This document shows positions 36,974-61,345 of a DNA stretch of 64,000 nucleotides, one piece after another. Each line of letters starts with the position of its first letter. The stretch's first letter is position 1. The notes below the pieces were generated by a model. It worked only from the letters and a program-made list of their open reading frames with translations. It was not told the DNA's origin and ran no database searches. The translations under genes and the position numbers were made by a program. This stretch comes from Streptomyces fagopyri (lineage in GTDB: Bacteria; Actinomycetota; Actinomycetes; Streptomycetales; Streptomycetaceae). The stretch is from positions 4,588,001 to 4,652,000 of the forward strand of contig NZ_CP045643.1 of assembly GCF_009498275.1 (NCBI RefSeq). The letters are read 5' to 3'.

Positions 36974-38221
36974 CTACTTGCCCTCCCCTTCATCCGCGAA
37001 CGACGCCTGGTAGGCGGCGAACTGGGCCCGCTCCTCGTCGACGAGCGCGTGCCCGTCCGCGTACACGTTCTCGAAGATCGCGAGGTGGTCGGGGTCCGGC
37101 ATGGCCCGGACGACTTCGCGTACTCGTTTGCCCAACGTCTCGCTCTCGGCCTCGAGTTCCGCGAAGAATCCCTCGTCCGCGTGGTTTGCGGCCTCCAGAT
37201 ACGCGCGCAGGCGCAGGATCGGGTCCTTCGCCTCCCAGGACTCGCGCTCCTCGTCCGCCCGGTACTTCGTCGGGTCGTCGGAGGTGGTGTGCGCGCCCAT
37301 CCGGTACGTGTAGGCCTCGACGAGGGTGGGCCCCTCGCCGCGGCGGGCCCGCTCCAGGGCCCACTTGGTCACGGCCAGGCAGGCCAGGACGTCGTTGCCG
37401 TCGACCCGGACGCCCGGGAAGCCGTAGCCCTGCGCGCGCTGGTAGAGCGGGACGCGGGTCTGCTTCTCGGTGGGCTCGGAGATCGCCCACTGGTTGTTCT
37501 GGCAGAAGAACACGACGGGCGCGTTGTAGACCGCGGAGAAGGTGAACGATTCGGCCACGTCGCCCTGGCTGGAGGCGCCGTCCCCGAAGTACGCGATCAC
37601 GGCCGAGTCCGCGCCGTCCTTGGCGATGCCCATGGCGTAGCCGGTGGCGTGCAGCGTCTGCGAGCCGATGACGATCGTGTAGAGGTGGAAGTTGTTGCTG
37701 TTCGGGTCCCAGCCGCCGTTGTTCACACCCCTGAACATGCCGAGCAGGTTGGTCGGGTCGACCCCGCGGCACCAGGCGACGCCGTGCTCGCGGTAGGTCG
37801 GGAAGACGTAGTCGTCGTCACGGGTGGCGCGGCCCGAACCGATCTGGGCGGCCTCCTGGCCGAGCATCGAGGCCCACAGGCCCAGCTCGCCCTGACGCTG
37901 CAGAGAAGTGGCCTCGGCGTCGAACCGGCGGCTCAGCACCATGTCCCGGTACAGGCCGCGCAGCTCCTCCGGGGTGATGTCGGCGACGTACGGGTCGTAC
38001 GTGGCGTCCGCGACCCGCTCGCCCTCCGGCGTCAGCAGCTGGACGAGTTCGGGGTCCGCGCCCGAAGTACCCGGTGACTTCTTGCCGGCCGCGCCGGTGC
38101 CCTTGCCGGCTGCGGTCCTGCTCGCGGCGGTCTTTGAACCGGCCGTACTGGCGCCGCTTTTCGCAGCGGTCGTACCGGCGCTGCGTCGCGGCTTGCGCGC
38201 GGCAGTGCTCTCCACGGTCAC
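36974..38221 (-). CDS. bkdF: Branched-chain 2-oxoacid dehydrogenase E1 alpha, first operon
   Basis: A 415-residue alpha subunit. The thiamine diphosphate motif runs from GDGASSQGDVAES to VVFFCQNNQWAISEP. The phosphorylation-loop region YRMGAHTTSDDPTKYR is that of branched-chain enzymes. An N-terminal extension of about 55 residues is rich in Lys, Ala, Thr and Ser (for example TAAKSGASTAGSKTAAS), is probably disordered, and is absent from the paralogue in the second operon. The GTG start at 38221 follows GGAGGA. It is the first gene of the operon; tandem GGATTTCCAAGTA sites lie about 225-260 bp upstream. Confidence 0.92.
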   Translation of the reverse strand: MTVESTAARKPRRSAGTTAAKSGASTAGSKTAASRTAAGKGTGAAGKKSPGTSGADPELVQLLTPEGERVADATYDPYVADITPEELRGLYRDMVLSRRFDAEATSLQRQGELGLWASMLGQEAAQIGSGRATRDDDYVFPTYREHGVAWCRGVDPTNLLGMFRGVNNGGWDPNSNNFHLYTIVIGSQTLHATGYAMGIAKDGADSAVIAYFGDGASSQGDVAESFTFSAVYNAPVVFFCQNNQWAISEPTEKQTRVPLYQRAQGYGFPGVRVDGNDVLACLAVTKWALERARRGEGPTLVEAYTYRMGAHTTSDDPTKYRADEERESWEAKDPILRLRAYLEAANHADEGFFAELEAESETLGKRVREVVRAMPDPDHLAIFENVYADGHALVDEERAQFAAYQASFADEGEGK

Positions 38222-53038: not shown

Positions 53039-54550
53039 TCACAGGGAACGCAGCAGCACCGCCGGCTGTTCGACACAGTCCGCCACGTACCGCAGGAAGC
53101 CGCCCGCCGTGCCGCCGTCGCACACCCGGTGGTCGAAGGTCAGCGAGAGCTGGACGACCTGCCGCACCGCCAGCTCGCCCTGGTGCACCCAGGGTTTGGG
53201 GACGATCCGGCCGACGCCGAGCATGGCCGCCTCGGGGTGGTTGATGATCGGCGTGGAGCCGTCGACGCCGAACACCCCGTAGTTGTTCAGCGTGAAGGTG
53301 CCGCCCGTGAGGTCACCGGGGGTCAGCGTCCCCGTCCGTGCGGCCTCGGTCAGCCGGGCGAACTCGGCGCTCAGCGACTGCGCGTCGCGGGTGTGCGCGT
53401 CCCGGACGACGGGAACGACGAGGCCACGTTCGGTCTGTGCGGCGAATCCGAGGTGGACGTGGCCGAGCCGGACGATCTCCCGGGCCTCCATGTCCACCGT
53501 CGAGTTGAGCTCGGGGTGGCGGGCCAGCGCGGCCGTGCAGATCCGGGCCAGCAGCGCGAGCAGGGAGATCTTCGGGCCGCCGGCGGCGTTCATCGCCGCG
53601 CGGGCGGCGAGGAGTTCGGTCGCGTCGGCGTCCACCCAGCAGGTCGCGTCGGGAATCTCGTGCCGGCTGCGGGAGAGCTTGTCCGCGACGGCGCCCCGGA
53701 TGCCCCGCAAGGGGACACGGGTCCCGGCCGCCGCCGGGGTCGCGGGGGTGGCGGCAGCGGGTGCTTCGGGTGCGCGGAGGCCGGTGAGGGTCTCCGGCTG
53801 TCCGGGGGCCGCGCCGGCCGAGCGCAGCGCGAGCTCCACGTCCGCCCGCAGGATCAGCCCGTCGTGGCCGGAGCCCGTCAGCTCCCTCAGGTCCAGCCCG
53901 TTCTCCCGGGCGATCCTGCGCACCAGCGGGGAGATGACCGCGACGGGACCGGTCGCCCGCGCGTCCGTCAGCGCCCGCGCGTCCATGCGCCCGGACACGG
54001 TCTCGGGCGCCGTCCCGGGCACGGCGGCGCGTCCCGAGGCAGCCGTCCGGGTACCGGGACCGCGCTCCGTACCCGGTGCTCCAAACGTACCCGGTGCTCC
54101 GGACGCGCCCAGCGGTCCGGACGCGCCGACCGCTTGCGGACCGGCGGCCGGGGAGCCGCCGTTCGACGGGGAATTCCCGGCGGGCCGGGCGGGCGCGACC
54201 GGGCTGGTCCGTACCCTCCTGCGGCGCGCCGGAGGCGCCCCCGTGCCGTACCCGACGAGTACGTTGCCGGACCCTTCGTCCGCGCCGTCGGAGGTCTGCG
54301 TGTCGCCGCCGACCGCGACCGTCAGCAGGGGGGAGCCGACCGGCAGTTCCGTGCCCTCCTCGCCGAAGCGGGCCGTGACCACGCCCCCGTAGGGACACGG
54401 GACCTCGACCATCGCCTTGGCGGTCTCCACCTCCACGACGGGCTGGTCGACGGAGACGACGTCACCGACCTCAACGAGCCAGCGCACGATCTCCGCCTCG
54501 GTGAGTCCCTCGCCGAGGTCGGGAAGCTTGAACTCCAGCACCTGGGCCAT
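53039..54550 (-). CDS. bkdC: Branched-chain 2-oxoacid dehydrogenase E2, second operon
   Basis: A 503-residue E2. The lipoyl domain (residues about 1-80) carries VEVETAKAMVEVPCPYGG with the lipoyl Lys. A long Gly/Ala/Pro/Thr linker (about 90-200) has GASGPLGASGAPGTFGAPGT-like repeats. The subunit-binding domain is near 205-240 (VISPLVRRIARENGLDLREL). The catalytic domain ends with LSLTFDHRVCDGGTAGG (HxxxDG). It forms the core of a second complex for Val, Leu and Ile degradation. Its ATG overlaps the E1 beta stop by one base. Compared with the first-operon E2, the linker is longer and the lipoyl surroundings differ. Confidence 0.9.
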   Translation of the reverse strand: MAQVLEFKLPDLGEGLTEAEIVRWLVEVGDVVSVDQPVVEVETAKAMVEVPCPYGGVVTARFGEEGTELPVGSPLLTVAVGGDTQTSDGADEGSGNVLVGYGTGAPPARRRRVRTSPVAPARPAGNSPSNGGSPAAGPQAVGASGPLGASGAPGTFGAPGTERGPGTRTAASGRAAVPGTAPETVSGRMDARALTDARATGPVAVISPLVRRIARENGLDLRELTGSGHDGLILRADVELALRSAGAAPGQPETLTGLRAPEAPAAATPATPAAAGTRVPLRGIRGAVADKLSRSRHEIPDATCWVDADATELLAARAAMNAAGGPKISLLALLARICTAALARHPELNSTVDMEAREIVRLGHVHLGFAAQTERGLVVPVVRDAHTRDAQSLSAEFARLTEAARTGTLTPGDLTGGTFTLNNYGVFGVDGSTPIINHPEAAMLGVGRIVPKPWVHQGELAVRQVVQLSLTFDHRVCDGGTAGGFLRYVADCVEQPAVLLRSL

Positions 54551-55554
54551 CAGTTGTCCGCCTCCCACTGGAGACGCGCCACGGCGTCCAGGATCCGGTC
54601 CACACCGGGCAGGTGGTGGCGCTCCAGCATCGGCGGCGGATACGGGATGTCGAACCCGGCCACCCGCAGCACCGGCGCCTCCAGGTGGTGGAAGCAGCGC
54701 TCGCTCACCCGCGCCGCTATCTCGCCGCCGGGGCCGCCGTAACCGCCCGACTCGTGCACGACGACCGCGCGGCCGGTCCGCCGCACCGACGCCGCCACCG
54801 TCTCGTCGTCGAAGGGGACGAGGGAGCGCAGATCGACGACTTCGAGGTCCCAGCCCTCGGTCCGCGCCGCCTCTGCGGCCTCCAGGCAGACGGGCACGGA
54901 CGGCCCGTAGGTGATGAGCGTGGCGCTGCGGCCCGGCCGGCGCACCACCGCGCGGCCTATCGGCTCCACGGACCGCGGCTCGTCGGGGTTCCAGGAGTCC
55001 TTCGACCAGTAGAGCCGCTTGGGCTCCAGGAAGACGACCGGGTCGTCGGAGGCGATGGAGGCGCGCAGCAGTCCGTAGGCGTCGGCGACCGTCGCGGGCG
55101 TGACGACATGCAGCCCCGGGGTGGCCATGTAGTACGCCTCGGAGGAGTCGCTGTGGTGCTCGACGCCGCCGATGCCGCCGCCGTAGGGGACCCGGATGGT
55201 CAGGGGCAGCGGCATGGCGCCGCGGGTGCGGTTGCGCATCCGCGCCACATGCGAGATCAGCTGCTCGAAGGCCGGGTAGGCGAACGCGTCGAACTGCATC
55301 TCCACGACCGGCCGCAGTCCGTACATCGCCATGCCGACGGCCGTGCCGAGGATGCCCGCCTCGGCGAGCGGGGTGTCCGTGCAGCGGTCCTCGCCGAACT
55401 CCTTGGCGAGCCCGTCGGTGACCCGGAAGACCCCGCCGAGGGTGCCGACGTCCTCGCCCATGACGTGGACGCTCGGGTCGGCCGCCATGGCGTCGCGCAG
55501 CGCGCGGGTGAGGGCCTGCGCCATGGTGGCGGGTTTGAGGGCGACGGTGGTCAT
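54550..55554 (-). CDS. bkdB: Branched-chain 2-oxoacid dehydrogenase E1 beta, second operon
   Basis: A 334-residue beta subunit with HVMGEDVGTLGGVFRVTDGL (catalytic Glu), PYGGGIGGVEHHSDSSEAYY and VVFLEPKRLYWSKDSW. It pairs with the alpha subunit encoded just upstream; ATGA overlap of four bases couples their translation. The length of 334 residues fits the bkdB product of S. avermitilis as I recall it, which is why this operon is named bkdABC. Confidence 0.92.
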   Translation of the reverse strand: MTTVALKPATMAQALTRALRDAMAADPSVHVMGEDVGTLGGVFRVTDGLAKEFGEDRCTDTPLAEAGILGTAVGMAMYGLRPVVEMQFDAFAYPAFEQLISHVARMRNRTRGAMPLPLTIRVPYGGGIGGVEHHSDSSEAYYMATPGLHVVTPATVADAYGLLRASIASDDPVVFLEPKRLYWSKDSWNPDEPRSVEPIGRAVVRRPGRSATLITYGPSVPVCLEAAEAARTEGWDLEVVDLRSLVPFDDETVAASVRRTGRAVVVHESGGYGGPGGEIAARVSERCFHHLEAPVLRVAGFDIPYPPPMLERHHLPGVDRILDAVARLQWEADN

Positions 55555-56717
55555 CGGCCGCCGCCTTCCGGCTCGAATCCGGCGGCGGTGTCCGTATCGG
55601 CCTCGGCGGCCAGCTCCGCGCGCAACCGCGCCTCCTGCTCACGCAGTTGTGGTGTGGGCTCGGCATACACATGGGCGAACAGGTCCATGGGGTCGAGCAC
55701 CGGGTCCTGGTTCATCCGGGCGCGCAGGTCCGCGGCCATCGTCTCGGCGGCCTCACGGGCGGCCAGGATGCCCTCCTCGTCGAGGAGACCCCGCTCGGTC
55801 AGCTCCTTTTCCAGGAGCACGATCGGGTCGTGCGCGCGCCAGGTCTCGACCTCGGAGTCACCGCGGTAGCGGGTGGCGTCGTCGGCGTTCGTATGGGCCT
55901 CGATGCGGTACGTGACGGCCTCGACGAGCGTCGGACCGCCCCCCGCGCGCGCGTGGCGCACGGCGTCGCTCAGGACCTCGTGCACGGCCGCCGCGTCGTT
56001 CCCGTCGACCAGGCGCCCGGGCATTCCGTAGCCGACGGCCTTGTGGGCCAGCGACGGGGCCGCGGTCTGCTTGTCGAGCGGTACGGAGATGGCGAAGCCG
56101 TTGTTCTGGACGAGGAAGACGACCGGGGCCTGCCACACGGCGGCGAAGTTCAGCGCCTCGTGGAAGTCGCCCTCGCTGGTGCCGCCGTCGCCCACGAGGG
56201 CGAGCGCGACCACGTCGTCGCCCTTGAGGCGGGCGGCGTGCGCGAGGCCCACCGCGTGCGGGAGCTGGGTGGCCAGCGGGGTGCACAGGGGGGCGATGCG
56301 GAGCTCGCGGGGGTCGTACCCGGTGTGCCAGTCGCCGCGCAGGAGGGTCAGGGCCTGGACGGGGTCGAGGCCGCGGGCGACTGCGGCGAGGGTGTCGCGG
56401 TAGCTGGGGAAGAGCCAGTCGCGCTCCTCCAGGACGAGCGCGGCGGCGACCTCACAGGCCTCCTGGCCGGTGCTGGAGGGGTAGACCGCGAGGCGGCCCT
56501 GCTTGGTGAGCGCCGTGGCCTGCGTGTTGTAGCGGCGGCCGCGCACCAGCTCCGTGTACAGACGGCGCAGCAGATCCGGGTCGACCCGTGCGGCCGTTCC
56601 GGTGCCGAGGACGCGATGGGGCAGCGCGTCGGGCAGCAGCGGCGCGGGGTCGGTGCGGGGCTGCCAGGCCGGCGGCGGCGTGGGCCGGTAAGCACCTCGC
56701 TGCTCCATGACCGTCAT
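55551..56717 (-). CDS. bkdA: Branched-chain 2-oxoacid dehydrogenase E1 alpha, second operon
   Basis: A 388-residue alpha subunit with the thiamine diphosphate motif from GDGGTSEGDFHEA to VVFLVQNNGFAISVP, and YRIEAHTNADDATRYR at the loop near the active site. It lacks the Lys/Ala-rich N-terminal extension of its paralogue. The ATG at 56717 follows AGGAGG by seven bases. It is the first gene of the bkd operon and is divergent from an Lrp-type regulator. A palindrome ACCGATTGTTCGGT lies 60-73 bp upstream, in promoter position. Confidence 0.92.
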   Translation of the reverse strand: MTVMEQRGAYRPTPPPAWQPRTDPAPLLPDALPHRVLGTGTAARVDPDLLRRLYTELVRGRRYNTQATALTKQGRLAVYPSSTGQEACEVAAALVLEERDWLFPSYRDTLAAVARGLDPVQALTLLRGDWHTGYDPRELRIAPLCTPLATQLPHAVGLAHAARLKGDDVVALALVGDGGTSEGDFHEALNFAAVWQAPVVFLVQNNGFAISVPLDKQTAAPSLAHKAVGYGMPGRLVDGNDAAAVHEVLSDAVRHARAGGGPTLVEAVTYRIEAHTNADDATRYRGDSEVETWRAHDPIVLLEKELTERGLLDEEGILAAREAAETMAADLRARMNQDPVLDPMDLFAHVYAEPTPQLREQEARLRAELAAEADTDTAAGFEPEGGGR

Positions 56718-56776
56718 GACGGCACCTCCTCGTGGGAGTGGCTCGGGGCGCACCACGGGTGTGATGCGCCTCACCT

Positions 56777-56790
56777 ACCGATTGTTCGGT
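56777..56790. promoter_or_regulatory. TetR/PaaR-type operator upstream of the second bkd operon
   Basis: ACCGATTGTTCGGT is a perfect ACCGA-N4-TCGGT palindrome. It differs at one base from the site in the paaH/paaN promoter region (59553-59566). It lies in the 174-bp gap between bkdA and the Lrp gene, closer to bkdA. Confidence 0.7.
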
Positions 56791-56891
56791 CGTCGGCACA
56801 TTTTGGCTACAGGCACCAGCAGGCTGTGGACAAACGGTTCTGCACAGCCTGAGATGGACGCAGTACGTCCATGGTAGGGAGGCGGGGGGAC

Positions 56892-57392
56892 ATGGCACCT
56901 GAACAAATGGCCGAGCCGCCGGGGGCCGGCGCCGTCGCGCCGCCCGCCCGTCCGCTCGACGCGATCGACCAGGACATCCTGCAGATGCTCCAGGCGGACG
57001 GCCGCGCCTCCATACGTTCCGTGGCCGAACGGGTCCATGTGTCACGGGCGAACGCCTACGCCCGGATCAACCGCCTCATCGAGGACGGTGTGATCCGCGG
57101 CTTCGGGGCGCGCGTCGACCACGAACGCGCGGGACAGGGCACCTCCGCGTACATCACCCTCAAGATCGTGCAGAACTCCTGGCGCACGGTGCGCGAGCAG
57201 TTGCGGGTGCTCCCCGGGGCATCCCACATCGCACTGGTGGGCGGTGACTTCGACGTGCTGCTGCTCGTCCACACGCCCGACAACAGGGCGCTGCGCGAGC
57301 TGGTCCTCACCCGGCTCCAGGCCATCCCGGAGGTCCTCAGCTCGCGGACACTGCTGGTGTTCGAGGAGGAGGACCTGGAACCGGAGGGCTGA
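56892..57392 (+). CDS. bkdR: Lrp/AsnC family regulator, probable bkdR
   Basis: A 166-residue feast/famine regulator. The N-terminal helix-turn-helix (residues about 20-70) has LDAIDQDILQMLQADGRASI and VAERVHVSRANAYARINRLIEDG; the C-terminal RAM domain (about 85-160) has GTSAYITLKI and VGGDFDVLLLVHTPDNRAL. Lrp proteins of this type activate bkd operons in Pseudomonas in response to branched-chain amino acids. It is divergent from bkdABC, which supports the same role. The ATG at 56892 follows GGGAGG and GGGGGGA; an ATG at 56871 is possible but has no RBS. Its stop is two bases from the stop of the TetR gene. Confidence 0.9.
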   Translation: MAPEQMAEPPGAGAVAPPARPLDAIDQDILQMLQADGRASIRSVAERVHVSRANAYARINRLIEDGVIRGFGARVDHERAGQGTSAYITLKIVQNSWRTVREQLRVLPGASHIALVGGDFDVLLLVHTPDNRALRELVLTRLQAIPEVLSSRTLLVFEEEDLEPEG

Positions 57393-57394
57393 GA

Positions 57395-57985
57395 TCAGCT
57401 CTCGGCCCTGAGCCCCCCGAAGACCACCTGTACGACCGCGTCGGCCACCTCGCGCTCGCCCATGCCCCGCCCGTCCGGCCGGTACCACTCCACGATCGAG
57501 TTGATCATCCCGAAGACGAGCCGGGTGGCGAGCCGGACCTCCACGTCGGCGCGCACGTCCCCGTCGGCCGCCGCGTCCTTCAGCAGCTCGGCCACCCGGT
57601 GGTCGAAGTCGCGGCGCCGCTCCAGGGCCCACCGCTCGGTGCCCGTGTTGCCGCGCACGCGCAGCAGCAGGGTCACGTACGGCAGCTCGGCGGTGAGCAC
57701 CTCGACCATCCGCCGTACGACGTACTCCAGGCGCTCCACGGCGCGCCCCACGCACGCGTGCTCCTCGCCGAGGATCTCGAAGAGGCCGTCGAGAGCGCGG
57801 CTGACGGCCCGGCGCAGCAGCTCTTCCTTGCCGGCGACATGGTGGTAGATCGACGACTTGGAGATGCCCGCCGCCTTGGAGAGATGCTCCATGGAGGTGC
57901 CGTCGTAGCCGCGTTCGTTGAAGACCTGGACGGCGACGGAGAGCAGGGTCTCCGGGGTGTAGGTGTCCCGCTTGGCGGTGGTCAT
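57395..57985 (-). CDS. TetR family regulator, probable PaaR
   Basis: A 196-residue repressor. The N-terminal helix-turn-helix (residues about 10-55) has NERGYDGTSMEHLSKAAGIS and KSSIYHHVAGKEELL; the C-terminal ligand domain contains LLRVRGNTGTERWALERRR and TRLVFGMINSIVEWYRPDG. Its ATG overlaps the TGA of the paaH-like gene by four bases, so both come from the promoter at 59497-59644. Two ACCGA-N4-TCGGT palindromes, in that promoter and before bkdA, match the core (ACCGNNCGNNCGGT) that I recall for Corynebacterium PaaR. The inducer is probably phenylacetyl-CoA or a related acyl-CoA. Confidence 0.88.
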   Translation of the reverse strand: MTTAKRDTYTPETLLSVAVQVFNERGYDGTSMEHLSKAAGISKSSIYHHVAGKEELLRRAVSRALDGLFEILGEEHACVGRAVERLEYVVRRMVEVLTAELPYVTLLLRVRGNTGTERWALERRRDFDHRVAELLKDAAADGDVRADVEVRLATRLVFGMINSIVEWYRPDGRGMGEREVADAVVQVVFGGLRAES

Positions 57986-59496
57986 GAGGTGCCCTCCCGC
58001 TTCTCGGTGGCGTGCCCGTGGCGGTACAGCGCGAGCGAGGGGGCGTAGCGGCCGGAGGGCTCGCGCAGGTGCAGCTCCTCCAGGAGGTCGTGCGCCCAGG
58101 TCCTGCCGAGCCTGCGGCACCATTCGAAGGGGCCCAGGGGGTAGTTGACGCCCAGGCGCATCGCGGTGTCGATGTCCTCCTCGGTGGCCACTCCCTTCGC
58201 GACGGCGTCGTGCGCCAGGTCCACGATGCGGGCCACGGTCCGGGCGACGATCATGCCGGGGGCGTCCCCGATGACACTGACGTCCTTGCCCAGCGCCTGG
58301 AAGAGGCCGATGGCCTCCGCGACCGTCTGGGGCGCGGTGTCCTGCGAGGCGGACAGGGCGATGCGGGTCGCCCTGCGGTAGTCCAGCGCCAGGTCGAAGT
58401 AGACGACGTCGCGGAACTCGATCGAGGTCTGGCCGTCGGCGAGGGCCAGCTGGCCGCCGCTGGGCAGCACCAGGCGGGTGCCGTGGTCCTCCTCGTCCTC
58501 GCGGACCTGGATGCCCGCCTCGCGGATCAGGGCGAGCAGTTCGGAGGCCGGTCCGAGGTCACCCTCCACGACGACGTGCGCGGGCGGCTGCGCCTGCTCG
58601 GCGGTGTGCGGCTCGGGCCGTTCGGCGTCGTCCCCGTAGTCGTACCAGCCGTGTCCCGTCTTGCGGCCGTGCCGGCCGGACTCGACGAGCCGCCGCTGGG
58701 CGAGCGAGGGGGTGAAGCGCAGGTCCTGGAAGAAGGCCTGCCACACGGAGTGCGTGACGGACTCGTTGACGTCCTGGCCGATCAGGTCGGTGAGCTCGAA
58801 GGCGCCCATCCTGAAGCCGCCGGACTCGCGCAGGACCGCGTCGATGGTGGCGGGATCGGCGGCCTGCGACTCGTACACCGCGAAGGCCTCGGCGTAGAAG
58901 GGCCGCGCGATGCGGTTGACGATGAAGCCGGGGGTGTCGGCGCAGGCGACCGGGGTCTTCCCCCACGCGCGGGCCGTCTCGTACGCGCGGGTGGCCGACG
59001 AGAAGTCGGTCGCGTGCCCGGAGACGACCTCCACGAGGGGCAGCAGCGGCGCGGGATTGAAGAAGTGCAGTCCGACCAGACGGCCGGGGTTGCGCAGGGC
59101 GCCACCGATGGCGGTGACGGACAGGGACGAGGTGTTGGTGGCGAGCAGGCAGTCGTCCTCGACGATGTCCTCGAGATCGCGGAACAGCTTCTGTTTGGCG
59201 TCGAGTTGTTCGAGGACCGCCTCGATGACGAGTACGCAGTCCGCCAGCTCGTCGAGGCTCCGCGCGGGTCGCAGCCGCTCGCGCGCCGCGTCGCGGTCGG
59301 CGCCGCTGAACCGGCCCTTCTCGACCAGCCGGTCGAGGCGCGCGCCGATCGCTTCGGCCGCCGCGTCGGCACGGCCCGCGAGGGTGTCGTAGAGCCGCAC
59401 CGGGTGGCCCGCGACCAGCGCGACCTGGGCGATGCCCTGGCCCATGGTGCCGGTGCCGACGACGGCCACGGGGCTGTTGAGGTCGAGTGCTGTCAT
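57982..59496 (-). CDS. paaH: 3-hydroxyacyl-CoA dehydrogenase, PaaH-like (duplicated C-terminal domain)
   Basis: A 504-residue dehydrogenase that oxidises 3-hydroxyacyl-CoA with NAD, here probably 3-hydroxyadipyl-CoA in phenylacetate degradation. The Rossmann motif AVVGTGTMGQGIAQVAL starts near residue 10, the catalytic His lies in VGLHFFNPAPLLPLVEVV, and two copies of the C-terminal domain follow (about 190-285 and about 395-490, the second with RLGVNYPLGPFEWCRR). Length and double domain fit PaaH/PaaC proteins rather than the 280-residue Hbd type. It heads an operon with the TetR gene and is divergent from paaN. Confidence 0.9.
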   Translation of the reverse strand: MTALDLNSPVAVVGTGTMGQGIAQVALVAGHPVRLYDTLAGRADAAAEAIGARLDRLVEKGRFSGADRDAARERLRPARSLDELADCVLVIEAVLEQLDAKQKLFRDLEDIVEDDCLLATNTSSLSVTAIGGALRNPGRLVGLHFFNPAPLLPLVEVVSGHATDFSSATRAYETARAWGKTPVACADTPGFIVNRIARPFYAEAFAVYESQAADPATIDAVLRESGGFRMGAFELTDLIGQDVNESVTHSVWQAFFQDLRFTPSLAQRRLVESGRHGRKTGHGWYDYGDDAERPEPHTAEQAQPPAHVVVEGDLGPASELLALIREAGIQVREDEEDHGTRLVLPSGGQLALADGQTSIEFRDVVYFDLALDYRRATRIALSASQDTAPQTVAEAIGLFQALGKDVSVIGDAPGMIVARTVARIVDLAHDAVAKGVATEEDIDTAMRLGVNYPLGPFEWCRRLGRTWAHDLLEELHLREPSGRYAPSLALYRHGHATEKREGTS

Positions 59497-59552
59497 GCTC
59501 GCGATCCTCCCGCACGGGGTTCTCCACAGATGCGGCGGACCCCCTTGTCCCG

Positions 59553-59566
59553 ACCGATCGTTCGGT
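59553..59566. promoter_or_regulatory. TetR/PaaR-type operator between paaH and paaN
   Basis: ACCGATCGTTCGGT is a perfect ACCGA-N4-TCGGT palindrome, 57 bp upstream of the paaH start and 79 bp upstream of paaN. With the flanking TTACT it is close to the PaaR consensus that I recall from Corynebacterium (ACCGNNCGNNCGGTNAGT). Confidence 0.8.
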
Positions 59567-59644: not shown

Positions 59645-61345
59645 ATGGCCGCCGAACTCACCGCTCACCAGTTGATCGCCCAGCACCGGCCCACCCTCGA
59701 CCAGGCGCTGGAAGCGATCCGTACACGCGCGTACTGGTCCCCGCATCCCGAACACCCCAAGGCCTACGGCGAGAACGGCAGCCTGGGCATGGCCGAGGGC
59801 AAGGCCGCCTTCGACGCCGTCCTCGGCACCCGTGTCGACCTCGGCCAGCCGGGCACCGACGACTGGGTCGGCGGCGAGGTCTCGCCGTACGGCATCGCGC
59901 TGGACGTCACCTACCCGCACGCGGACATCGACGTGCTGCTGCCCGCCATGCGGGCCGGTCAGCGCGCCTGGCGCGACGCGGGCGCGGAGACACGCGCGGT
60001 GGTCTGTCTGGAGATCCTCAAGCGGATCGCCGACCGGACCCACGAATTCGCGCACGCGGTGATGCACACCAGCGGCCAGGCCTTCATGATGGCGTTCCAG
60101 GCGGGCGGCCCGCACGCGCAGGACCGCGGACTGGAAGCGGTGGCGTACGCGTACGCGGAGCAGATCCGCACCCCGGACACCGCTGAGTGGACCAAGCCCC
60201 AGGGCAAGCGCGACCCGATCACGCTGACCAAGCGGTTCACCCCGGTCCCGCGCGGCATCGCGCTCGTCATCGGCTGCAACACCTTCCCCACGTGGAACGG
60301 CTACCCGGGCCTGTTCGCCTCCCTGGCCACCGGCAACGCGGTCCTCGTGAAGCCCCACCCGCGCGCGGTGCTGCCGCTCGCGCTCACCGTGGGCATCGCG
60401 CGCGAGGTGCTCGCCGGGGCGGGCTTCGACCCGAACCTGGTGGCGCTGGCCGCCGAGCGTCCCGGGGAGGGCATCGCCAAGACCCTGGCCGTCCGCCCCG
60501 AGATCAGGATCATCGACTACACGGGTTCGACGGAGTTCGGCGACTGGCTGGAGACGCACGCCCGTCAGGCGCAGGTCTACACCGAGAAGGCCGGCGTCAA
60601 CACGGTGATCGTGGAGTCGACCGCCGACTACAAGGGCATGCTGTCCAACCTGGCCTTCTCCCTGTCCCTGTACAGCGGCCAGATGTGCACGACCCCGCAG
60701 AACCTCCTCGTCCCGCGGGACGGCATCCGTACGGACGAGGGCCCCAAGTCGTACGACGAGGTGGTCGCCGACCTCGCCAGGTCGGTCGGCGGACTCCTCG
60801 GGGACGACGCGCGGGCCAACGGACTGCTCGGAGCCATCGTGAACCCGGACGTGAAGGCCCGCCTGGAGGCCGCCGCCGGCCTCGGCGAGGTCGCCCTCCC
60901 CTCCCGGGAGATCAGCAACCCCGAGTTCCCCGACGCCGTCGTCCGGACACCGGTGATCGTGAAGCTCGACGGCGCCCGTAAGTACTGGGAGGGCACGGAC
61001 GACGAAGCCGCGTACATGAGCGAGTGCTTCGGCCCCGTCTCCTTCGCGGTCGCGGTCGACTCGGCGGCGGACGCCGTGGAGCTGCTTCGCCGCACCGTCC
61101 GGGACAAGGGCGCGATGACCGTCGGCGCGTACACCACCGACGAGGAGTTCGAGCAGTCCGTCCAGGAGGTCTGCCTGGAGGAGTCCGCCCAGCTCTCCCT
61201 GAACCTCACGGGCGGGGTGTACGTCAACCAGACGGCGGCCTTCTCCGACTTCCACGGCTCCGGCGGCAACCCGGCGGCGAACGCGGCGCTGTGTGACGGA
61301 GCGTTCGTCGCGAACCGCTTCCGCGTGGTCGAGGTGCGGCGCTAG
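59645..61345 (+). CDS. paaN: Phenylacetic acid degradation protein PaaN (aldehyde dehydrogenase family)
   Basis: A 566-residue aldehyde-dehydrogenase-fold enzyme of the actinobacterial PaaN type. The N-terminus MAAELTAHQLIAQHRPTLDQ and the segment GENGSLGMAEGKAAFDAVLG are diagnostic. GCNTFPTWNGYPGLFASLATGN, EKAGVNTVIVE and SGQMCTTPQN contain the cofactor region and the catalytic Cys. Unlike E. coli PaaZ it has no C-terminal MaoC hydratase domain, so it should only oxidise the ring-opened aldehyde. The ATG follows GAGGAG. The other paa genes (ring-activating paaABCDE, paaK) are not in the window. Confidence 0.93.
   Translation: MAAELTAHQLIAQHRPTLDQALEAIRTRAYWSPHPEHPKAYGENGSLGMAEGKAAFDAVLGTRVDLGQPGTDDWVGGEVSPYGIALDVTYPHADIDVLLPAMRAGQRAWRDAGAETRAVVCLEILKRIADRTHEFAHAVMHTSGQAFMMAFQAGGPHAQDRGLEAVAYAYAEQIRTPDTAEWTKPQGKRDPITLTKRFTPVPRGIALVIGCNTFPTWNGYPGLFASLATGNAVLVKPHPRAVLPLALTVGIAREVLAGAGFDPNLVALAAERPGEGIAKTLAVRPEIRIIDYTGSTEFGDWLETHARQAQVYTEKAGVNTVIVESTADYKGMLSNLAFSLSLYSGQMCTTPQNLLVPRDGIRTDEGPKSYDEVVADLARSVGGLLGDDARANGLLGAIVNPDVKARLEAAAGLGEVALPSREISNPEFPDAVVRTPVIVKLDGARKYWEGTDDEAAYMSECFGPVSFAVAVDSAADAVELLRRTVRDKGAMTVGAYTTDEEFEQSVQEVCLEESAQLSLNLTGGVYVNQTAAFSDFHGSGGNPAANAALCDGAFVANRFRVVEVRR

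Follow-up and report, generated by a model that had tools for sequence, protein, structure and literature searches.

PaaR proteins are TetR-family repressors of the paa genes for phenylacetate breakdown, and this control has already been published for several bacteria, Streptomyces included. The PaaR proteins of Burkholderia cenocepacia and Thermus thermophilus repress paa promoters until they are released by an inducer (PMC9493321, PMC6651687). The inducer is called 'compound II' in PMC9493321, and we take it to be phenylacetyl-CoA from the title of the T. thermophilus paper that is cited there. In a streptomycete, PaaR of Streptomyces pristinaespiralis (SSDG_03033; Zhao et al. 2015, as described in the review PMC10933834) is likewise a TetR repressor of paa. 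Here we analyze a stretch of 64,000 nucleotides, hereafter the window, that covers positions 4,588,001-4,652,000 of the single-contig 8.88 Mb genome of Streptomyces fagopyri. In the window, a gene for a TetR-family regulator (tetR) lies between the phenylacetate genes paaH and paaN on one side and the keto-acid dehydrogenase operon bkdABC, with its neighbor bkdR, on the other, and a palindrome of the form ACCGA-N4-TCGGT is found in front of both sets of genes. Comparison of these sequences across genomes leads us to propose, as very probable, that the paa repressor of Streptomyces and its relatives extends its control to a branched-chain keto-acid dehydrogenase operon.

The described systems resemble this locus to different degrees. 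The B. cenocepacia PaaR operator, ACCGACCGGTCGGTT, has the same arms as the operators of the window, whereas the T. thermophilus PaaR consensus, AACnAACGTTnGTT, is unlike them. The targets described for these two proteins are paa genes, with no link to bkd in the portions of PMC9493321 and PMC6651687 on which we draw, and the main text of PMC10933834 does not mention bkd in connection with S. pristinaespiralis PaaR. PfmR of T. thermophilus (TTHB023) is a TetR repressor thought to join the phenylacetate genes to a second acyl-CoA pathway, and the left arm of the site predicted for it, TACCGACCGNTNGGTN, is similar; that second pathway is fatty-acid metabolism, however, rather than branched-chain keto-acid oxidation (PMC7022988). 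Among regulators of keto-acid genes, the mycobacterial TetR repressor BkaR controls the accD1-bkdC operon through a GTTA-type palindrome that is unlike the operators found here, and 'phenylacet' does not occur in the main text of PMC3920632. PccD of Saccharopolyspora and Mycolicibacterium is a TetR repressor tied to branched-chain keto-acid or propionyl-CoA metabolism (PMC8176718, PMC11596240), and it is said to control the dehydrogenase operon in Saccharopolyspora (PMC8176718). BkdR (SCO3832) controls the dehydrogenase cluster in S. coelicolor and S. albus but belongs to the Lrp family, and the main text of PMC8176718 is likewise free of 'phenylacet'. Among the titles and abstract openings listed for open-licence papers, we found no description of PaaR at bkd. 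PaaR control of paa and TetR control of keto-acid genes are thus both known; what is new is that the established repressor PaaR has a predicted second target pathway, bkd, across a family.

The TetR-family regulator and two divergent promoters

The protein encoded by tetR matches the Pfam models TetR_N and TetR_C_24 above their cut-offs and is therefore a member of the TetR family. Its best solved relative is S. coelicolor SCO3833 (345 bits), and a further structure match, 3vpr, is presumably PfmR. Among the 19 NCBIfam models listed for this protein, none exceeds its own cut-off and none is named PaaR. In addition to family membership, two traits expected of a PaaR are present: the tetR gene lies with paa genes, 6.8 kb from paaA, and the paa promoters carry an operator of the form ACCG-N6-CGGT. 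The GTTA-type palindrome described for BkaR (PMC3920632) and AccR (PMC10933834) is not the form of the operators in the window, which are ACCGA-N4-TCGGT.

Read from right to left, the genes are paaN (plus strand), paaH and tetR (minus strand), bkdR (plus strand), and bkdA, bkdB and bkdC (minus strand). The preliminary description of this DNA had proposed that two 14-mers form a shared TetR-type operator; both are present where it placed them, and they differ by one base. Each is an exact ACCGA-N4-TCGGT palindrome, and they are the sole two exact matches in the window. The bkd operator lies 59 bases from the bkdA ATG (56717, minus strand) and 101 bp from the bkdR start, while the other lies 56 bases from the paaH ATG (59496, minus strand) and 78 bp from the paaN start. 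Measured in both directions, these distances place each operator inside a divergent promoter. The translational coupling of tetR to paaH, also claimed earlier, is visible as an ATGA overlap between the tetR start and the paaH stop. The near-equal spacing to bkdA and paaH had been offered as further evidence. It holds here but not across the family: in loci where the site and the extrapolated bkdA start are no more than 350 bp apart, the distance to bkdA ranges from 28 to 239 bp, and we dropped the spacing as evidence.

Exact arms seldom arise by chance in these promoters. When the intergenic regions were base-shuffled, an exact-arm site appeared in 37 of 200,000 versions for bkd and in 30 of 200,000 for paa. 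Allowing one mismatch gives 8 matches in the window against 3.6 expected, so weak matches carry little meaning.

Conservation of the predicted bkd operator and its company with tetR

Two sets of loci were compared. The close set consists of Streptomyces loci retrieved with the TetR protein (the best 80 of 535 confirmed stretches), and the family set consists of 80 loci fetched after bkdR and TetR were searched in 150 genomes of the Streptomycetaceae. Lack of conservation of the motif upstream of bkdA in related Streptomyces had been named in the preliminary description as a result that would refute it, and the outcome is in its favor. The bkd promoter reads exactly ACCGAACAATCGGT in the bkdA direction in 80/80 close loci, and the site is identical in 75 of the 80 family loci, which span 13 genera; the five without it are from genomes G001, G010, G015, G020 and G038. 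Across the 75 family loci, every position of the site carries 2.00 bits, compared with 0.33 bits in the 70 nt on the bkdA side and 0.75 bits in the 70 nt on the bkdR side. Since the 40-nt flanks are poorly alike between genera (median identities of 0.38 and 0.47 for pairs from different genera), the bkd site stands out as selected. It is a single word, with all 14 positions invariant in 155 loci, whereas the paaH/paaN and paaA sites fall into six words, whose middle bases vary chiefly with the genus. A search for co-variation between operator and TetR among genera yielded nothing usable, as the arms are constant and only the middle of the paa sites varies.

Presence of the 14-mer anywhere in the genome was then compared with presence of the TetR gene (match at E 1e-50) in 394 family genomes, the window's own included; the position of the 14-mer at bkd was verified in the close and family loci examined. 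The 14-mer is present in 383 genomes and TetR in 386: 381 have both, 6 have neither, 5 have TetR only and 2 have the 14-mer only. In nearly every genome listed, the 14-mer is single-copy.

A genome-wide scan for ACCGA-N4-TCGGT found 26 exact-arm places in 8.88 Mb, compared with 6 in a backward control. These include an operator 31 bp before paaA of the paaABCDE operon, 775 bp past the window end, and another before paaK (TIGR02155, 713 bits, over cut-off), 3.8 Mb from the window. The idea of an operator common to bkdABC and paaH/paaN, both copies being exact, is supported, but its list of targets was too short, because paaABCDE and paaK carry the same operator. We also built a blind matrix of the four middle bases with all bkd sites excluded; its input was 23 genus-by-promoter words, taken from the paaH/paaN and paaA operators at 160 loci other than the window. 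The paaK, bkd, paaA and paaH/paaN sites score 4.4 to 4.5 in this paa-only matrix, and the best of the other 22 of the 26 places, one of which is inside paaE, scores -2.3. The scoring of paaH/paaN and paaA is nearly circular, because close relatives have the same words, so bkd and paaK are the real test.

The other operators are also widely kept. The paaH/paaN operator is found in 80/80 close and 70/80 family loci, and the paaA operator in 44/45 close and 21/22 family loci that hold paaA. The putative site AACGA-N4-TCGGT given in PMC10933834 is present at the paaA operator with an offset of 4 nt, both in this genome and in 14 of the 15 loci from the same genus that contain paaA. An exact-arm operator lies within 400 bp of paaK in 17 of 30 loci, our genome among them; of the 13 paaK loci without one, 6 have paaA or paaN adjoining paaK. 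No close paaK was found in 15 of 61 genomes. TetR and the bkd 14-mer occur with no paaK match at E 1e-150 in G014, G023, G027, G036, G041, G043, G047 and G057, and a short TIGR02155 fragment lies beside the TetR gene in G023.

Taken together, the conservation of the site, the paa-only matrix, the co-occurrence with TetR and the position of tetR inside the paa cluster support, at the sequence level, the earlier claim that one repressor serves bkd and paa. We consider it highly probable that this TetR protein is PaaR and that it would repress bkd and paa together through four ACCGA-N4-TCGGT operators. Its binding, repression and effector we infer from other PaaR proteins. A PaaR dimer would bind the predicted operators at paaH-paaR/paaN, paaABCDE, paaK and bkdA/bkdR, and the first of these would make PaaR autoregulated. 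At paaN and bkdA a plausible -10 element closely follows the operator, so bound PaaR would block RNA polymerase there. Phenylacetyl-CoA or a related acyl-CoA, the assumed effector, would release the repressor, and BkdR, of the Lrp family, would act as a further input on the bkdA/bkdR intergenic region.

The association of PaaR with paa extends beyond the Streptomycetaceae. In a sample of the class, a TetR match at E 1e-38 was found in 75 of 246 genomes, 22 of them from the window's own genus. Of 20 loci from other families, 18 have one or more paa genes together with the TetR gene, and in 6 of the 20 a promoter of paaA, paaK or paaN carries an exact-arm operator. For bkdA, we took the best locus, 2.7 to 4.1 kb long, from each of 30 other-family genomes with TetR. 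Nineteen of these are 56-69% identical and are probably orthologs; the other 11, at about 40-43%, may not be. A bkdR-like neighbor is present in 11 of the 30, and an exact-arm site is present in none, anywhere in the locus. The PaaR-paa association thus seems ancient, with the bkd operator apparently a trait of the Streptomycetaceae.

Alternative readings of the bkd site

Several observations weigh against control of bkd by PaaR. The absence of the operator from those 30 loci is one, and L276 lacks it as well, although bkdA, bkdR and tetR share that locus, 15 kb apart. Of the six genomes with neither the 14-mer nor a TetR match, G010 speaks for such control, but it is the single case of co-loss that is clearly informative: a bkdR match is missing from G018, G029 and G034 (the last being split into 800 contigs), the locus fetched for G015 contains no bkdA, and G038 retains a TetR fragment on another contig. 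In G010, bkdR and bkdA are present, but neither a TetR match nor a close paaK was found. An alignment by eye shows that TCGGTCG and the downstream block persist in the G010 bkd promoter while the left half of the site is gone; even with up to two arm mismatches allowed, no match is obtained there. Five genomes have TetR without the exact site: degenerate bkd sites with 1-2 arm mismatches occur in G398, G521 and G616, G020 has no site though TetR adjoins bkdR, and G001 has no bkdR match. In the two genomes with the 14-mer only, G004 and G031, the word is not near the genes considered here. Because 22 of the 26 exact-arm places score low in the paa-only matrix, and because exact-arm matches occur elsewhere in some close loci (ACCGACTTCTCGGT being recurrent), exact arms alone are unspecific. 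Conservation on the bkdR side is also high in the close loci (1.67 bits over 100 nt, n=80), so that set weighs less than the family set. Finally, the middle of the bkd site is unlike the paaH/paaN and paaA words in every locus, which makes a further or different function possible.

Promoter elements around the operators were assigned by eye, since a scan of 56650-56950 found no consensus promoter. The paaN operator is flanked by TTGTCC and TACTCT with 16 bases between them. At bkd, TAGGTG starts at the last base of the operator in the bkdA direction, and the A-G-G after the operator is conserved (1.5 to 2.0 bits). Read toward bkdR, the center of the bkd operator is TTGTTC. The degenerate bkd operators of G616, G521 and G398 (loci L278, L279 and L280; same genus, TetR present) keep the center, GATTGTTCG, as their arms decay.

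The reading closest to our own, and compatible with it, is that PaaR acts through the bkd site on bkdR rather than on bkdA, so that bkdABC would be linked to PaaR indirectly via BkdR. If TTGTTC doubled as the -35 element of bkdR, the unchanging center of the bkd site, including its one-base difference from the paa sites, would be explained. Of the 80 close loci, 78 have the extrapolated bkdR start at 101 nt from the site, and 39 of the 75 family loci have it at 101-102 nt; retention of the center in the three decaying copies also fits. The promoter scan, however, turned up no consensus promoter, and the conserved A-G-G could belong to a bkdA -10 element. We regard this variant as possible, though on balance rather unlikely.

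The bkd palindrome could instead be the operator of one or more other TetR proteins with similar arms, its likeness to the paa sites coming from common arm preferences of the TetR family. Other TetR proteins abound, a loose first look giving 23 to 203 candidates in each family genome, and the middle of the bkd site differs from all six paaH/paaN and paaA words. Yet the TetR gene of the paa cluster is only 0.6 kb from the bkd site, the 14-mer tracks its presence and is single in nearly every listed genome, and a matrix built from paa sites only accepts the bkd site, all of which makes this explanation improbable. Less probable still is that the site is some conserved promoter element or BkdR element that only happens to look like a PaaR operator: conservation does partly run on along the bkdR side, but a chance match of ten arm bases is as rare as the shuffles indicate, all 14 positions are invariant, and the site is missing from the best bkdA loci of the 30 other-family genomes, 11 of which have the bkdR-like neighbor.

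Neighboring features and possible meaning for keto-acid oxidation

The features of the locus are collected in Table 1. The Lrp/AsnC-family gene is probably bkdR, as it is the neighbor of a relative of SCO3833 and SCO3832 is bkdR (PMC8176718). The paaH product, scored against the PaaH model TIGR02279, reaches 578.6 bits, under the cut-off of 669.4.

Table 1. Coordinates of genes, predicted operators and associated elements in the window.
Feature	Position	Strand	Remarks
bkdC, E2, third gene of the operon	53039..54550	-	Reading frame and start; lipoyl motif near N-terminus, E2 by inspection
bkdB, E1 beta	54550..55554	-	Transket_pyr, Transketolase_C
bkdA, keto-acid dehydrogenase E1 alpha	55551..56717	-	TIGR03181 over cut-off, Pfam E1_dh; start from ribosome-binding site
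Predicted PaaR operator, bkdA/bkdR divergent promoter	56777..56790		ACCGATTGTTCGGT; ACCGAACAATCGGT in bkdA direction
TTGTCCACAG, DnaA-box-like	56824..56833	-	33 nt before bkd operator, bkdA direction
Predicted bkdR, Lrp/AsnC-family regulator	56892..57392	+	Pfam HTH_AsnC-type, AsnC_trans_reg
tetR, TetR-family repressor, PaaR candidate	57395..57985	-	Closest solved structure SCO3833 (PDB 2iai)
paaH-type 3-hydroxyacyl-CoA dehydrogenase, upstream gene coupled to tetR	57982..59496	-	NF006124, 644 bits over cut-off
TTCTCCACAG element	59520..59529	+	23 nt before paaN operator, paaN direction
Predicted PaaR operator, paaH-paaR/paaN divergent promoter	59553..59566		ACCGATCGTTCGGT
paaN, phenylacetic acid degradation protein	59645..61345	+	TIGR02288, 980 bits over cut-off

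The word TTNTCCACAG, which we take to resemble a DnaA box, precedes the predicted PaaR operators at bkdA, paaN and paaA (window 56821-56850 and 59520-59529; L016:1722-1731). At bkdA, the TTGTCCACAG element belongs to an imperfect inverted repeat at 56821-56850, whose arms, AGGCTGTGGA and TGCACAGCCT, have one mismatch. In the close loci, TCCACA occurs at most 120 bp before the operator, in the gene direction, in 80/80 cases at bkdA, 77/80 at paaN and 44/44 at paaA, and the full word TTNTCCACAG is present in 80, 75 and 43 of these, respectively. The usual distance from TCCACA to the operator is 34 at bkdA (80/80), 24 at paaN (74/77) and 45-46 at paaA (36/44), that is, in steps of roughly one helix turn. 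The family counts for TCCACA are 33/74 at bkdA, 29/69 at paaN and 20/21 at paaA, against a background of 0.02 per stretch of that length; none was seen at paaK of this genome. The genome holds 67 copies of TTNTCCACAG, compared with 10 in the backward control. Four of them fall within 201 bp at G000:C1:4717068-4717268, about 65 kb from the window end, a cluster that is possibly the replication origin region.

Streptomycetes have two keto-acid dehydrogenase gene clusters. A second E1 alpha gene is found at 36992-37984 of the window, about 18 kb from bkdA; its product is 42% identical to that of bkdA, and neither of the window's two exact operators is nearby.

If PaaR represses bkd and paa together, bkdABC becomes a candidate source of phenylacetyl-CoA. 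The likeliest use of such control is coordination: the BkdABC complex would contribute phenylacetyl-CoA, made from phenylpyruvate, or other acyl-CoAs in time with the paa pathway. PglB/C of S. pristinaespiralis, a dehydrogenase-like complex, is proposed to convert phenylpyruvate to phenylacetyl-CoA (PMC7089894), and a PaaR-controlled bkd complex could do the same. With more doubt than belief, we raise the stronger suggestion that in the Streptomycetaceae the bkdABC operon beside bkdR is in part a phenylpyruvate dehydrogenase of phenylalanine breakdown, in which case PaaR would sense phenylacetyl-CoA and switch on both the routes in (paaK, bkdABC) and the routes out (paaABCDE, paaN, paaH). A search of plasmid proteins with bkdA for a named phenylpyruvate dehydrogenase gave, among the 25 of 715 records listed, pdhA-type, thiamine-enzyme or unannotated proteins.

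Polyketides and fatty acids draw branched acyl-CoA precursors from the bkd complex. Phenylacetyl-CoA, for its part, feeds pristinamycin I (PMC10933834). A regulatory link between bkd and paa therefore predicts that precursor supply would respond to aromatic substrates. The repressor shared with phenylacetate breakdown would also provide a direct handle on one of the two keto-acid dehydrogenase clusters. If, beyond this, the stronger suggestion of a phenylpyruvate dehydrogenase is true, that cluster would gain a role of its own in Streptomyces, and the branched-chain starter units for antibiotics and fatty acids would be tied to aromatic catabolism.

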